Shown piece after piece: positions 8,249 through 13,693 of a DNA stretch of 23,239 bases; the first letter of the stretch is position 1; every line of letters begins with the position of its first letter. The stretch is from a virus: positions 1 to 23,239 of IMG/VR virus record IMGVR_UViG_3300035698_005558. One strand, written 5' to 3'. Under the pieces are notes generated by a model. That model was given only the letters and a program-made list of their open reading frames with translations, did not search any database and was not told the origin of the DNA. Position numbers and translations under genes: made by a program.

Positions 8249-8812
8249 CTATAAACTTAATTCAAATTCTAAGTAATCACAAATAGAATGTATTAATACT
8301 AATGTGCTTTCCTGTATCGTTGGTGTATTATCTGATGGTATATTAAAGGTAATACCACATAGTTTATTTAATTTAGTTTTCTTAGTACCTATAATGGCAA
8401 TAGTTGTAATTCCCATCTTCTTAGCTTGCTTCACAGCTTGGATTAAATTCTTTGATTTTCCACTAGTAGATAGTACAATTAAACAATCCCCTGGTAATCC
8501 CAATGCTTCCACTTGACGTGAGAAAATCTTATCATATTTGTAATCATTGCCTAAAGCTGTCAGTATGGACGTGTCTGTGTTTAAGGCTATAGCAGCATAC
8601 CCTTTTCGTTCTCTTTTGAACCTACCCACCAACTCAGCGGAAAAATGGGATGCCTGTGCAGCACTGCCACCATTACCTACTATCATAATTTTGTGTTTAC
8701 TTTTTAAACAGAGTAGTAATAAGTCTGTTATAATATTCCAGACATGGCAATATTCAGTATCTTCTAATAATTGTAATACATTAGCTAGTTTATTTAATGA
8801 TCTATAATACAT
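8249..8812 (-). CDS. gmhA: GmhA-type sedoheptulose-7-phosphate isomerase (SIS domain)
   Basis: A 187-residue SIS-domain protein close in length to bacterial GmhA (about 190). GmhA turns sedoheptulose 7-phosphate into glycero-manno-heptose 7-phosphate, the first step of ADP- or GDP-heptose synthesis. Visible marks are the phosphate-binding GNGGSAAQASH, the expected metal-site residues H56 and E60 (SHFSAELVGRF) with Q167 and H175 (TIQESTLVLIH), and the LSTSGKS loop. The frame extends to an ATG at 8824, but GGAG lies six bases before the ATG at 8812, so that start is preferred. Upstream is a structured leader and a strong promoter. With the GT9 and sulfotransferase-like genes nearby, it suggests that the phage remodels a heptose-containing glycan. 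No gmhB, hldE or related genes are in the window. Confidence 0.9.
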   Translation of the reverse strand: MYYRSLNKLANVLQLLEDTEYCHVWNIITDLLLLCLKSKHKIMIVGNGGSAAQASHFSAELVGRFKRERKGYAAIALNTDTSILTALGNDYKYDKIFSRQVEALGLPGDCLIVLSTSGKSKNLIQAVKQAKKMGITTIAIIGTKKTKLNKLCGITFNIPSDNTPTIQESTLVLIHSICDYLEFELSL

Positions 8813-8828
8813 ATTATTCTCCATTAGT

Positions 8829-9018
8829 GTAAGTTAAAGTTAGGTGAGGATTTGCACCTCACACTGTAGCATGTCAACTCGCCTAAAATAGGTATCCCTA
8901 TTTCGGGTTAACTCAAGCTACTCATTACTTGTCCCCAGTAAGAAGTTCTCTCCTAGGATAGCTGAGAGCGACTCAGCAGTTTGTTAGCATTACCTATTCT
9001 GCCACTAACCTTTCTTAC
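8829..9018 (-). ncRNA. 190-nt structured RNA leader upstream of gmhA, class unknown
   Basis: The RNA would start near 9018, seven bases past the -10 box. Its two ends pair in a 13-bp closing helix: 9018-9014 with 8833-8829, 9013-9011 with 8838-8836, 9009-9005 with 8843-8839. Inside lie a 6-bp hairpin (8977-8972 with 8966-8961), a 5-bp hairpin (8941-8937 with 8929-8925), a 56-nt long hairpin (8921-8866) with helices GTAGC/GCTAC, a 9-bp helix with one mismatch and one G-U pair, and a 7-bp helix capped by a GATA tetraloop, and a 6-bp hairpin with a TGCAAAT loop (8862-8857 with 8849-8844) like a tRNA T-arm. No ORF of note is present. It ends seven bases before the gmhA ribosome-binding site. It could be a riboswitch-like leader or a separately processed RNA. 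Confidence 0.7.
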
Positions 9019-9024
9019 AGTATA

Positions 9025-9053
9025 AGTATACCATATTGATAGTACTTTGTCAA
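9025..9053 (-). promoter_or_regulatory. sigma70-type promoter, TTGACA-17-TATACT
   Basis: The minus strand has TTGACA (9053-9048), a 17-base spacer and TATACT (9030-9025), close to a perfect consensus. It sits just past the end of the connector gene, and the predicted start coincides with the 5' base of the structured RNA. Confidence 0.88.
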
Positions 9054-9061
9054 GTGTTTAC

Positions 9062-9658
9062 TTAAAATAGTTCAAAATAATCCGTTTCTTCATAGTTCTG
9101 TAATACTTTGTCAATTTCTTCATCAATTAATTTTGGTTGTGTTTTAAAATCCGTTAAATTCCACTCTACCCCATAGTCTCCCATGTTTTCTCTGATCATT
9201 TCTTTTGGAACTAATGAAGGTTTTGTCAATAATACTAACTTTAAATAAAAAAGTGAAATAATCAATTTGTCTATTGCACCTACACTGCTTTGATTATATG
9301 TATAAACTGCTACAGCCTTAGTTAAATTAGAAAAAGTACTTGCATAATATATAATACCTTCTTCTACGTATAATGTATAGGCTGTATTGGCTACTACAGT
9401 AGCTGTCTCATTATCTCCGTTACCTGAATAAGTTGTTAAAGTTGTTACTGCATTGATATCTACTTTAGATAATCTAAGATACTTCTTTGATGAAAATAAC
9501 CTTACTGTGTCAGTCTGTGTACCAGAAGCATAGTTTTTACCTAATTTAGTTGCTGCCTGTATCTTAGAGGCATTCACTAAATTTGTGTCTAGGTTTGCTT
9601 CCACTATTCCCGTTAACGCTGCTAATTCTGCATTTGTGATTACTGTTACATCCGCCAT
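9062..9658 (-). CDS. probable head-tail connector/adaptor protein
   Basis: A 198-residue protein. The opening (ITNAELAALTGIVEANLDTNLVNASKIQAATKLG) resembles the short helical pair at the start of gp6-like head-completion/connector proteins, and the C-terminal third is again helical with an acidic aromatic end (NYEETDYFELF). The middle is beta-rich and Thr-rich. The function is inferred from this pattern and from lying downstream of the capsid gene, though the glycan genes stand between. GGAGG precedes the ATG at 9658. It could instead be a minor capsid or decoration protein. Confidence 0.55.
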   Translation of the reverse strand: MADVTVITNAELAALTGIVEANLDTNLVNASKIQAATKLGKNYASGTQTDTVRLFSSKKYLRLSKVDINAVTTLTTYSGNGDNETATVVANTAYTLYVEEGIIYYASTFSNLTKAVAVYTYNQSSVGAIDKLIISLFYLKLVLLTKPSLVPKEMIRENMGDYGVEWNLTDFKTQPKLIDEEIDKVLQNYEETDYFELF

Positions 9659-10122: not shown

Positions 10123-10395
10123 TTATATTAGTTTTTTCTTTCTTAAGTACCGTAGTACTTTATTTACACTCTCTTCAACTGTTTCATTATCAGTATTTAA
10201 AACAATCTCTGGATTTAAAGGTTGCTCATATTTTTGTGAAATTCCAGTAAAATTTGGTATAATTCCTGCTTTTAATATATACGTTCCCAATTCCGAACTC
10301 ATAAATATGTCAGGATGATTACTTAACATTTCAGCTAATATAGTTGTTCCCGATCTATATATTCCGCAGATAACTAAATCCCTTATATTATCCAT
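10123..10395 (-). CDS. short sulfotransferase-like protein, probably truncated
   Basis: A 90-residue protein that begins like the sulfotransferase family: a strand, then GIYRSGTTILAEMLSNHPDIF, which matches the 5'-phosphosulfate-binding loop that contacts the PAPS donor. Full sulfotransferases run to about 250-300 residues and need a later 3'-phosphate loop, which is absent here, so this is either a remnant or a small P-loop protein of other function. The start at 10395 has a perfect AAGGAGGT and overlaps the end of the GT9 reading frame by a few bases. The C-terminal part (TDNETVEESVNKVLRYLRKKK) is helical. It may once have modified the glycan made by its neighbours. Confidence 0.6.
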   Translation of the reverse strand: MDNIRDLVICGIYRSGTTILAEMLSNHPDIFMSSELGTYILKAGIIPNFTGISQKYEQPLNPEIVLNTDNETVEESVNKVLRYLRKKKLI

Positions 10396-11284
10396 TAGTA
10401 CCTCCTTCCAGTATTTCTATAGACATTTCTATTATACTATCACTAGAAATAGCTTCCATACATTCTGCACCTATTCTCTCAATATCCTGATTTTCTATAT
10501 CTTTTTTATACTTACAATTATTCATAAATACTCCTCTATCAAAACAAATACAATCTGGTTTACTCCACAATACCTTAGTTAAATCATAATAAGAACATCT
10601 AGTAATAGGATTAATGTTTCCAAATAAAGCAATACAAGGCTTTCTTAAAGCATGAGCAACATGTAGAAACCCAGAATCAGGAGTAATTAATAAATCTACC
10701 GAATTAATTATAGATATCGCTTTTCGTAAATTAGTTCTACCTACTACATCTAATACTTGTGGGTTCTTCTCAATAAATTCTAAATACTTTGTAGTAAATG
10801 GGCGGTGATCCCAACATCTGGTAGCAGTTCCTAAAACTACTATATTATAGTTGTCTTTTAAACTGTTGATAACATTCAATGTACCTTTTATTGTGTAGGT
10901 TCTTACAGGAGAAATGGAATTTAAAACAATTCCTATAGTTTTCTTATTTTTATCAAATGATTTACAGATATCTTTAGCTACTTTCTCTTCCTCGGTAGTA
11001 ACAAAATATTTAAATCTTACTAGGTCTGGTACTTCTAAATTAAATAGTTTAAAAAACATATCTATTCTTGGTTTAGTAGTATATTCGCTCTCTGTTAACT
11101 GTCCTCGTGGGTTAATACTCTTTGATTCCACACCAAAATCTAAATCTATAACTATATCATATGTGTTTCTTTCATTGTCCTGTAATTTATCTCCAAATTC
11201 TACTTTTATTACCTCACTTATATCATTGTTACCTTGAAATAACTCTGGATAGTTAGTTCTATATGCTATATGAGCATCTGGGTA
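10388..11284 (-). CDS. third GT9 domain, cut off from its parent by an in-frame stop
   Basis: This stretch is in the same reading frame as the 802-residue glycosyltransferase upstream and continues it directly after the TAA at 11285-11287: ...LAELRR-stop-YPDAHIAYRTNYPELF. Its 299 codons complete a third GT-B domain of the ADP-heptosyltransferase type, with ITPDSGFLHVAHALRKP and IALFGNINP matching the second-half motif of domains one and two, and a Cys cluster (CICF...NCKY...ECME) in the same place. The first usable start downstream is a GTG at 11131 with no ribosome-binding site, so independent translation looks poor. It is therefore a disrupted domain, or one expressed by readthrough. Confidence 0.75.
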   Translation of the reverse strand, partial: YPDAHIAYRTNYPELFQGNNDISEVIKVEFGDKLQDNERNTYDIVIDLDFGVESKSINPRGQLTESEYTTKPRIDMFFKLFNLEVPDLVRFKYFVTTEEEKVAKDICKSFDKNKKTIGIVLNSISPVRTYTIKGTLNVINSLKDNYNIVVLGTATRCWDHRPFTTKYLEFIEKNPQVLDVVGRTNLRKAISIINSVDLLITPDSGFLHVAHALRKPCIALFGNINPITRCSYYDLTKVLWSKPDCICFDRGVFMNNCKYKKDIENQDIERIGAECMEAISSDSIIEMSIEILEGGTNG

Positions 11285-13693
11285 TTATCTTCTTAACTCA
11301 GCTAGTGGGGAGGTAGTCATTAAAATATCACCTAATCCAGAGCTTCTGTTTATTAAAATTCTCTTTTGTATTGGTATATTATTCACCACTCTATAAACCT
11401 CCCCAAATATTTGCTTAGTTGTTATACCCTCCATACATCTTGACCCTATTTTTGGAGTACATCCATAAGATTTCCATTTAACATCTCCACATTTATCCTT
11501 ACACTTTAATGTATGATTTCTTATTGGTGTTACATATTTATAATCATGAACTCTCAAGCTTGGATTTATTGCTCCAAATAAAGCTATACACTTTACTCCC
11601 AAGGCTTCACACATATGTATTACTCCTGTATCTGGTGCTATTACTAAGTCCGCATGATGTAATATTCCTAGTAGTTGTCTTATTGTTGTAGTATTACAAA
11701 AATTAAATATGTTCTTTTTAGGTAAAAATTTCCCTAAAAATCTAGGTAATCGCTGATTTGTAAACCACCAACCACTAGTGAATTTTCCAACTAACAATAT
11801 ATCAAAATCTTCTTTTAATTCTAACAGTAATTCTGTAACTTTTTCTAATGGATAAGTTCTTAATGGTGTAGATGCATTCATTACGTACACTAATTTTTTT
11901 CTAGTTGATCTTTTAAATATATTCCAAAACTTCTTCCCTTGTTTCATCTCTGCTTTATTTAAAATTATTTGTGGGTTAAATCCTTCGTAAGTTATGTTAG
12001 ACCTTTGATAAAAAAGTAAGTTTCTAGGAACATTAAAGTAATCGTAACTATTATAACCCTCTTCTACAACTTGATTTAGATTTAGTATTGAGTCATACTG
12101 TTCATCAATGGGTTTCTTTGTATACAGTATATCTATATCTGTATTAAATTTAAATATCTCTACATGGTTAGTTAACAACCCTAATTTAGTAATATTAGGA
12201 TATCTAGTTCTTATATCATGTAATACTGATGATAACATAATTAAATCACCTATTCCACTTTGTCTAACAATTAATAATGATTCTACTGCACCATAATCTA
12301 TTACTGCTTCTGAATTATTACTATAAAATAGTGACTCTAATTTAGTAAAATATTTGTTATCTTTATTTAATTTTGGAATTAATAATCTTATAGCTTCTAA
12401 TACATCGTCAACCTTAATATGATACATACATTTATAGATGTTTCCTATTCTACAATCTGGACTCATTTTTGGTTCGTTCTTAGACTTATAATAGCATGGA
12501 CTACATGATAATGGTGATTGAATTGGTACACAGTTATCATAGTAACTGGTTCTCCAAGAGGCTGGTATAATACTAAATAGTGCTATTGTAGGTTTTTTAA
12601 ATGCTGCTGCTATATGCAATGCTAAACTATCTACTGTAAGTACTAAGTCTGAGGAATAAATTAAAGAGCATACTTCTCTTATAGTGTTCTTTCCAGTTAA
12701 ATTAAATACATCTTTATAATCACTTGCTATTTTTCTCTTTCCAACTAGGATTATATTAAACTTCATTAAATTTAATTTATTTATGATTTCCCCTACATAA
12801 GTTTCTGGATACCTTCTTGCTGGTGAATTTGAGTCAACATTAATTACTAAGTTAATTTTTTGGTCTTTTATATAATTACTTGCGTATGCTATTTCTTTCT
12901 GTGTTAAATGTAACTGTGGTAATTTATCTTCCACTTTTATCTTAAAAAATTCAGCAATAGAATCTACTCTTGGTTTATGTGTAATAGGATTTTGTGTATC
13001 TTCTAAAAAGCTTCCTAAACAGTAATAATTATCAAAGCATCTATTACTTTGGTAATATTTTGATTCTGCGTAAGACCCTACAATCTCATCTAAATCGGGG
13101 TTTTGTTTTAATACTTCATTGGCTGGCTGATTACAAACGTAAGTAATAGTAGAAAATGGGTGATTTAGTTTTAACTGTTTTACTATGGCTGTAGTTATTA
13201 GTATATCTCCTATTCCTCTATCTCCACAATCAGTTATTGAATCGAATACTATATGATTAATTTTTTGATCCTTTATTTCTATCTCACATAAATTACCTAA
13301 TTGTTTTAAATCTAGATTTAAGCAATTTGTTTTTGTTCTAAAATTCTTTGCTACCAATTCTCCTCTAGTATTATGTCCATGAACTGCCGAAATAACATCA
13401 GTTTCCCTTAATATACGCTCATTAAAGAACTTATTTGTTGTTTCAACATATATAATACTCTTATTATTAATAAATTGATTGGGGAATTTATTACAAAAAT
13501 AAATAATAAATGTATTGTTAGATAATAATTTTTTGAGAATTTGTTGTGGTGGAAGTAAGTCCTCTGATAACTCATGAGAACCATAGACTAATACATACTT
13601 CTTACTGCTTTCTGGTACAGTAAAAGATGCTGTGCTTTGTGGGATATTAGAACTGTCTGTTCTTATTTTACATATTGCGTTTAAGTGTAGCAT
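11285..13693 (-). CDS. multi-domain GT9 (heptosyltransferase-like) glycosyltransferase
   Basis: An 802-residue protein, likely transferring heptose or another sugar to a surface glycan. Residues 1-145 form a separate N-terminal region of unknown kind. Then come two complete GT-B/GT9 domains: about 148-435 (RGIGDILITT; LTVDSLALHIAAAFKKP) and 472-770 (SGIGDLIMLSS; IAPDTGVIHMCEALGVK). Each has a four-Cys cluster after the sugar-nucleotide motif. A third domain begins at about 778 (SGLGDILMTT) and is stopped by TAA at 11285. GT9 enzymes are usually single-domain, around 350 residues, so tandem domains are unusual and could build an oligosaccharide. AGGAG precedes the ATG at 13693. It lies directly downstream of the capsid gene and a strong hairpin, and shares context with gmhA. 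Confidence 0.85.
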   Translation of the reverse strand: MLHLNAICKIRTDSSNIPQSTASFTVPESSKKYVLVYGSHELSEDLLPPQQILKKLLSNNTFIIYFCNKFPNQFINNKSIIYVETTNKFFNERILRETDVISAVHGHNTRGELVAKNFRTKTNCLNLDLKQLGNLCEIEIKDQKINHIVFDSITDCGDRGIGDILITTAIVKQLKLNHPFSTITYVCNQPANEVLKQNPDLDEIVGSYAESKYYQSNRCFDNYYCLGSFLEDTQNPITHKPRVDSIAEFFKIKVEDKLPQLHLTQKEIAYASNYIKDQKINLVINVDSNSPARRYPETYVGEIINKLNLMKFNIILVGKRKIASDYKDVFNLTGKNTIREVCSLIYSSDLVLTVDSLALHIAAAFKKPTIALFSIIPASWRTSYYDNCVPIQSPLSCSPCYYKSKNEPKMSPDCRIGNIYKCMYHIKVDDVLEAIRLLIPKLNKDNKYFTKLESLFYSNNSEAVIDYGAVESLLIVRQSGIGDLIMLSSVLHDIRTRYPNITKLGLLTNHVEIFKFNTDIDILYTKKPIDEQYDSILNLNQVVEEGYNSYDYFNVPRNLLFYQRSNITYEGFNPQIILNKAEMKQGKKFWNIFKRSTRKKLVYVMNASTPLRTYPLEKVTELLLELKEDFDILLVGKFTSGWWFTNQRLPRFLGKFLPKKNIFNFCNTTTIRQLLGILHHADLVIAPDTGVIHMCEALGVKCIALFGAINPSLRVHDYKYVTPIRNHTLKCKDKCGDVKWKSYGCTPKIGSRCMEGITTKQIFGEVYRVVNNIPIQKRILINRSSGLGDILMTTSPLAELRR

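Follow-up and report, generated by a model that had tools for sequence, protein, structure and literature searches.

A probable family of tRNA-like phage RNAs with a variable middle domain and no obvious anticodon arm

Skipping-rope RNA (RF02924) is the closest known class to the phage RNA described here, and by model it is a separate class. It has an 8-bp acceptor-like closing stem, a 2-nt junction, and a variable middle, features that recur in the RNA family of this study, and a pseudoknot is reported for it (PMC7779021). A second point of comparison is the bacterial Y RNA YrlA (RF02553), a known tRNA mimic that binds Ro60/Rsr and whose mimicry of the D, T, and acceptor arms of tRNA is set out in PMC8394870. 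The third is tRNA itself, the model of which (RF00005) is a cloverleaf with an anticodon arm and a TTCRANY T loop. Judged from its sequence, the RNA analyzed here belongs to a large group of phage RNAs that lacks annotation and very probably is a tRNA-like structured family.

This member lies in IMG/VR virus record IMGVR_UViG_3300035698_005558, of which positions 1 to 23,239 were analyzed (23,239 nt; the window). All of its features are on the minus strand, and the basis for each is given in parentheses:

9053 to 9025, minus strand: sigma-70 promoter TTGACA-17-TATACT with TG before the -10 (11/12 match; +1 expected near 9018)
9005 to 9018, minus strand: 5' strand of the acceptor-like stem, GTAAG A AAGGTTAG (fold; family acceptor covariation)
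8987 to 9004, minus strand: TG junction and D arm, GCA-GAATAGGTAA-TGC (family model match; conservation)
8961 to 8977, minus strand: hairpin GCTGAG/CTCAGC at the anticodon-arm position (fold)
8933 to 8957, minus strand: additional hairpin of the variable domain (fold)
8866 to 8921, minus strand: S2 "variable arm", 56 nt, with GTAGC/GCTAC closing an inner arm with a GATA tetraloop (fold)
8844 to 8862, minus strand: T arm GTGAGG-TGCAAAT-CCTCAC (shared exact 20-mer; best family-model match in the window)
8829 to 8843, minus strand: 3' strand of the acceptor-like stem, CTAACTTT.. CTTAC (fold; joint score for D motif and acceptor)
8249 to 8824, minus strand: SIS-domain gene, GmhA/DiaA-like, cotranscribed with or downstream of the RNA (PF13580, 3.4e-25)

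A sequence-only reading of this DNA had proposed a multibranched RNA that starts at a strong promoter and ends at the ribosome-binding site of a gmhA gene, and the later analysis bore this out. On the minus strand, 8829-9018 has a predicted minimum free energy of -61.3 kcal/mol, compared to -46.0 +/- 4.3 for shuffled sequences (z = -3.58; 0/200 shuffles as good); the plus strand folds more weakly (z = -2.1). The minimum-free-energy structure is also the centroid; it is closed by the helix GTAAG/CTTAC plus AAGGTTAG/CTAACTTT and has five hairpins inside, two of them on the loops GAAUAGGUAA and UGCAAAU, and both the 56-nt GATA arm (8921-8866) and the T-arm-like TGCAAAT hairpin (8862-8844) of the earlier reading are present. 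The 3' end at 8829 directly precedes the Shine-Dalgarno GGAG (8822-8819) of the SIS-domain gene, for which the ATG at 8812 is the likelier start. Two glycosyltransferase family 9 (heptosyltransferase-like) proteins adjoin this gene at 10388-13693, which suggests that the phage carries a sugar-decoration module.

Searches with known models and with the window itself recovered little. Rfam 15 returned nothing relevant, either at gathering over the whole window or at E ≤ 10 over 8750-9100, in line with the earlier remark that the sequence matches no familiar riboswitch consensus, and neither ARAGORN nor the tRNA model RF00005 recognized the element. A blastn search of the whole 190 nt against phages gave no match, and the exact 19-mer of the D half is absent from IMG/VR. 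No relatives of the SIS, major capsid, 198-aa, and primase proteins of the window were found in IMG/VR, nor was any relative of the capsid protein found in the phage collection; because close relatives of the window proteins were not found, the window's own middle domain is without comparative support.

The T arm opened the way to the family. Its 20-mer, GTGAGGTGCAAATCCTCACC, occurs in at least 119 IMG/VR stretches and in 27 bacterial genome contigs, mostly of Firmicutes, and the surroundings of these matches have in common an upstream half resembling the D arm of tRNA-Leu (GCGGTGGCGGAATAGGTAGACGC), followed by a variable stretch. An independent scan that used the D-arm motif alone as the query gave at least 112 unique sites; among the 112 listed, 71 have an exact TGCAAAT hairpin 42 to 211 nt farther on, with a 3' flank that pairs with the acceptor, and 8 have the loop variant TGCGAAT, TGTAAAT, CGCAAAT, or TGCAGAT. 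Many of the remaining sites resemble real tRNAs, and some are real tRNA-Leu. At least 219 unique elements were collected in total, and no Rfam 15 family matches them, nor did the literature searched describe a comparable tRNA-like RNA of phages.

Members follow one order: an acceptor-like stem, TG, a D arm with the loop GAATAGGTAGA (consensus TG GCG-GAATAGGTAGA-CGC), a variable domain of 0 to 190 nt that often forms an H-type pseudoknot or a long variable arm, and a T arm with a 6-bp stem and the loop TGCAAAT. There is no obvious anticodon arm, and as a rule no CCA is encoded at the 3' side. The conserved letters are T8, a GG like G18G19, AAT-A, and the T-loop letters T54 G55 C56 A57/G A58 A59 T60, the TGCAAAT loop being nearly invariant. 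Some members depart from this plan. In 32 of the 219 elements (e.g., L021, L027, L092, and L104), a structured insert between AATAG and GTAGAC splits the D loop, and in 9 (L009, L020, L028, L032, L088, L100, L111, L135, and L228; 0.02 expected in shuffles), a canonical tRNA T-arm hairpin with a TTCRANY loop is nested in the variable domain. The Enterococcus phage phiFL2A has, between ArpU and terS (L286:2478-2530), a minimal form of ∼55 nt with an acceptor, a short D arm, and a T arm, almost without a middle domain.

When one covariance model with a collapsed variable domain was used, many members split into two half-matches, and the window RNA is among them, owing to its long variable domain. 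Its T half (8914-8837) is the best family-model match in the window (23.8 bits; E = 4e-5), and its D half (9011-8955) is the second best (18.7 bits; E = 0.0013), with order and strand both correct. With the T arm as anchor, D motif and acceptor pairing reach a joint score of 18; the maximum among 8000 random window anchors was 17. The window element has the TGCAAAT-loop T arm on a 6-bp stem with the exact shared 20-mer, the TG and D arm (loop GAATAGGT), and an acceptor complementary to the 3' flank. The 3' strand of its S2 arm stops 3 nt short of the T stem, and the family scan has signal at 2 and 3 nt. The promoter just upstream is not a family feature and is special to the window, since only 7 of 213 members have a full upstream promoter.

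Pairing was assessed in 132 elements picked by the D and T motifs alone, without a pairing criterion. Acceptor positions 2 to 7 are paired in 130, 129, 129, 124, 123, and 109 of these elements (55 to 82 after shuffling), all four Watson-Crick pair types are used at positions 2 to 6, and T-stem positions 3 to 6 show the same pattern. In a core alignment of 47 sequences, 99.0% of cells are paired compared to 70.4% in shuffles, double changes occur at 18 of 21 pairs, and the signal is gone when the partner is shifted by 1 to 3 columns; S2 was picked by pairing in this alignment, and its counts there are not evidence. The closing helix drawn in the sequence-only reading therefore covaries across the family in both data sets. 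A further possibility is that the elements are decayed tRNA-Leu genes, as the tRNA-Leu-like D-arm motif and its matches in real tRNA-Leu might suggest, but we give this next to no credence, because decay would not preserve a nearly invariant TGCAAAT loop together with acceptor and T-stem covariation in such diverse sequences. The earlier reading holds on this point as well: the RNA is not a decayed tRNA.

The middle domain is less uniform. Helices of at least 6 bp whose S2 3' strand stops exactly 2 nt short of the T stem occur in 59% of elements, compared to 15% after shuffling of the upstream part. The S2 partner can be located in the loop of a preceding hairpin, and the result is an H-type pseudoknot; a crossing helix of this kind is moderately enriched across the family (mean z = 0.68; 21% above 2) and is clear in L095 and in SPP1, where the pairings are CCTC/GAGG and GTACGGG/CCCGTAC. 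A self-hairpin in the linker between the D arm and S2, as a general "anticodon arm," is weakly above shuffles (mean z = 0.29).

The family resembles tRNA in its tRNA-Leu-like D-arm sequence, its U8-like T, G18G19, C56, and an acceptor plus T stem of ∼13 bp, and it differs from tRNA in the missing anticodon arm, the G55 of the T loop, the 6-bp T stem, and the usual absence of an encoded CCA. A G at position 55 would block the usual pseudouridine 55. Compared by eye with the printed consensus of skipping-rope RNA, the family has the same arm order (acceptor, D-like AAxxGGxAG, variable domain, T-like arm). The D-like loops are alike (AAAgGGcag in skipping-rope RNA, AATAGGTAG in the TGCAAAT family), and in both an AU stands just before a T-like arm that starts with G, whereas the T-like loops are unlike (AaagGCcgc and TGCAAAT). 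RF02924 had no match at gathering in the window and 20 loci, nor at E ≤ 10 in 8750-9100 or at the element in 12 further loci, and the TGCAAAT-family model R1 gave no family match on the loci of the phages Goe14 and SPR. Because neither model recognizes the other, we keep the two separate despite the common layout.

Identity with YrlA, which mimics the same three arms of tRNA, is extremely improbable. YrlA has another sequence, and the 5' and 3' ends of the TGCAAAT family form an acceptor and not a Ro-binding stem; the Rfam scans gave no YrlA match at the element, and a dedicated search of five carrier contigs had none over the cutoff. Moreover, no Ro60/TROVE gene was found among the 135 neighboring proteins scanned, and TruB needs U55, where the family has G.

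Named carriers include the Bacillus phage SPP1 (with the element between genes 9 and 11), phi3T, SPbetaL1, KLEB27-1, and Leuconostoc phage Ln-9 and its relatives, and further carriers are phages of Lactobacillus, Latilactobacillus, Listeria, Enterococcus, Aerococcus, and Paenibacillus and one thermophile phage; in the carrier records that we read, the element has no RNA annotation. Large phages have 1 to 7 copies of GGTGCAAATCC, on one strand throughout and often among tRNAs, with no match in the control. By simple calls of open reading frames of at least 80 codons, which are not curated gene models, the upstream gene is codirectional in 132 of 150 loci and the downstream gene is on the opposite strand in 49 of 150. 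The first same-strand downstream gene is very diverse, as no family accounts for more than 4 of 65 cases, and among these 65 other members it is never SIS/gmhA.

Such varied or opposite-strand downstream genes argue against a gmhA-specific leader and for an RNA transcribed in its own right. The earlier reading had suggested a riboswitch or protein-binding leader of the heptose gene that switches between two folds, in which GTTAG pairs with one of two mutually exclusive CTAAC partners. The element does adjoin the ribosome-binding site of a gmhA-like gene and has its own promoter, and both pairings exist, but the switch is unsupported: pairing with the nearer CTAAC (8987-8983) takes up the final base of the D-arm stem, and an alternative comparable to that of the window is not conserved, occurring in 10 of 178 members compared to 16.1 expected. 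With unrelated genes downstream of other members, the leader interpretation did not survive, and we regard it as very improbable. The other suggestion of that reading, a stable RNA processed from the leader, may still apply, as may a protein-binding RNA.

The main rival is a different cis-acting role, in which the tRNA-like fold, as the first RNA made after the late promoter, serves as the leader of the late operon, either by acting on RNA polymerase (antitermination, put-like) or as an RNase P/III site that sets the 5' end of late mRNA. In seven smaller phages (LP-101, vB_LmoS_188, JNU_P10, TMW 1.1365 P3, D6E, EG-TP1, and phiFL2A), the element comes after the late activator or a counterpart of it (RinA, ArpU, sigma-like), and HNH/terminase genes come next where the record reaches them, some records ending before terminase. 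Such placement directly ahead of the late operon in temperate phages would also suit a cis-acting leader, and in vB_LmoS_188 the Listeria rliG model stops close to the start of the element. Likewise, in phi3T and SPbetaL1 the element lies in the yonN-yonK interval, where the SPbeta late region begins. The late YonO transcript of SPbeta is reported to start upstream of yonK and of an unannotated noncoding RNA (PMC5467207). This RNA may be the element, which would also favor the explanation that we prefer, but DUF3800-VIII lies in the same interval. We nevertheless consider a late-operon leader unlikely, as the element is also found in tRNA clusters and in 1 to 7 copies per phage, the next gene is on the opposite strand in about a third of loci, and the window copy is in midgenome before a SIS gene.

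The explanation we prefer, with moderate confidence, is a phage-encoded, trans-acting, tRNA-mimic noncoding RNA, action in trans being fairly probable from the genomic context. The acceptor stem, D arm, and T arm form a tRNA-like upper half that keeps the elbow nucleotides G18G19 and C56, with T-loop U55 replaced by G (U54-G55-C56), and a hypervariable folded domain, often a pseudoknot, takes the place of the anticodon arm. In the window, transcription would run from the RNA's own promoter and start at the acceptor end; elsewhere, tRNA-processing enzymes may cut the element from late or tRNA-cluster transcripts. The tRNA-like half could then make the RNA stable and let a host tRNA-binding protein recognize it, and the variable domain would carry the specific activity. 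Our best guess for that activity is that a host tRNA-binding factor (a translation factor, tRNA nuclease, or defense effector) is occupied or blocked in late infection, a decoy or blocker role that we put forward tentatively and hold to be rather unlikely.

Skipping-rope RNA recurs at the SPbeta-type locus. In the sister phage Goe14, a skipping-rope RNA fills the slot after hup/yonN in place of the element (annotated by its depositors; 31.3 bits, under Rfam's 36.7), and SPR has a closely similar sequence in the same slot. A bolder and quite doubtful proposal would unite the TGCAAAT family and skipping-rope RNA in a single superfamily of phage tRNA mimics. In these mimics a pseudoknotted effector domain that evolves fast would have replaced the anticodon arm, and the RNAs would be produced chiefly late in infection, to disable host defenses aimed at tRNA or to reprogram translation. 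The family, missed by Rfam 15 and ARAGORN and unannotated in hundreds of phages, typically sits at the start of late transcription or among tRNAs and connects the orphan skipping-rope RNAs with tRNA mimicry. Its carriers include laboratory models (SPP1, relatives of phi3T/SPbeta, and Listeria and Lactobacillus phages), and it raises a question directly testable in B. subtilis, a genetically tractable host, namely, what use phages make of anticodon-less tRNAs.

Several other RNAs are found near the element. Two tmRNA genes (L045:3203-3612 and L117:173-595) share phage contigs with it, and short tRNA-like structures with canonical T loops share its intergenic region in SPP1 (L266:3540-3590) and JNU_P10 (L273:2265-2325 and 2735-2812). 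In the Listeria phages LP-101 and vB_LmoS_188, rliG (RF02415), rli62 (RF01486), and mcrA RNA (RF03010) lie beside the element: rliG and rli62 map immediately upstream (L271:2749-2896 and L270:2718-2850), and mcrA RNA maps downstream in LP-101. We rejected identity of the element with rliG, as the Listeria small RNAs are flanking sequence; the three may be parts of a single late-leader transcript. Finally, FelixO1 has between tRNA-Asn and tRNA-Tyr (L285:1392-1450) a structure with the loop TGCAAGT and an acceptor-like ATTTAGG/CCTGAAT stem, which is possibly a distant relative of the family, and many FelixO1-like phages have the T-arm match as well.
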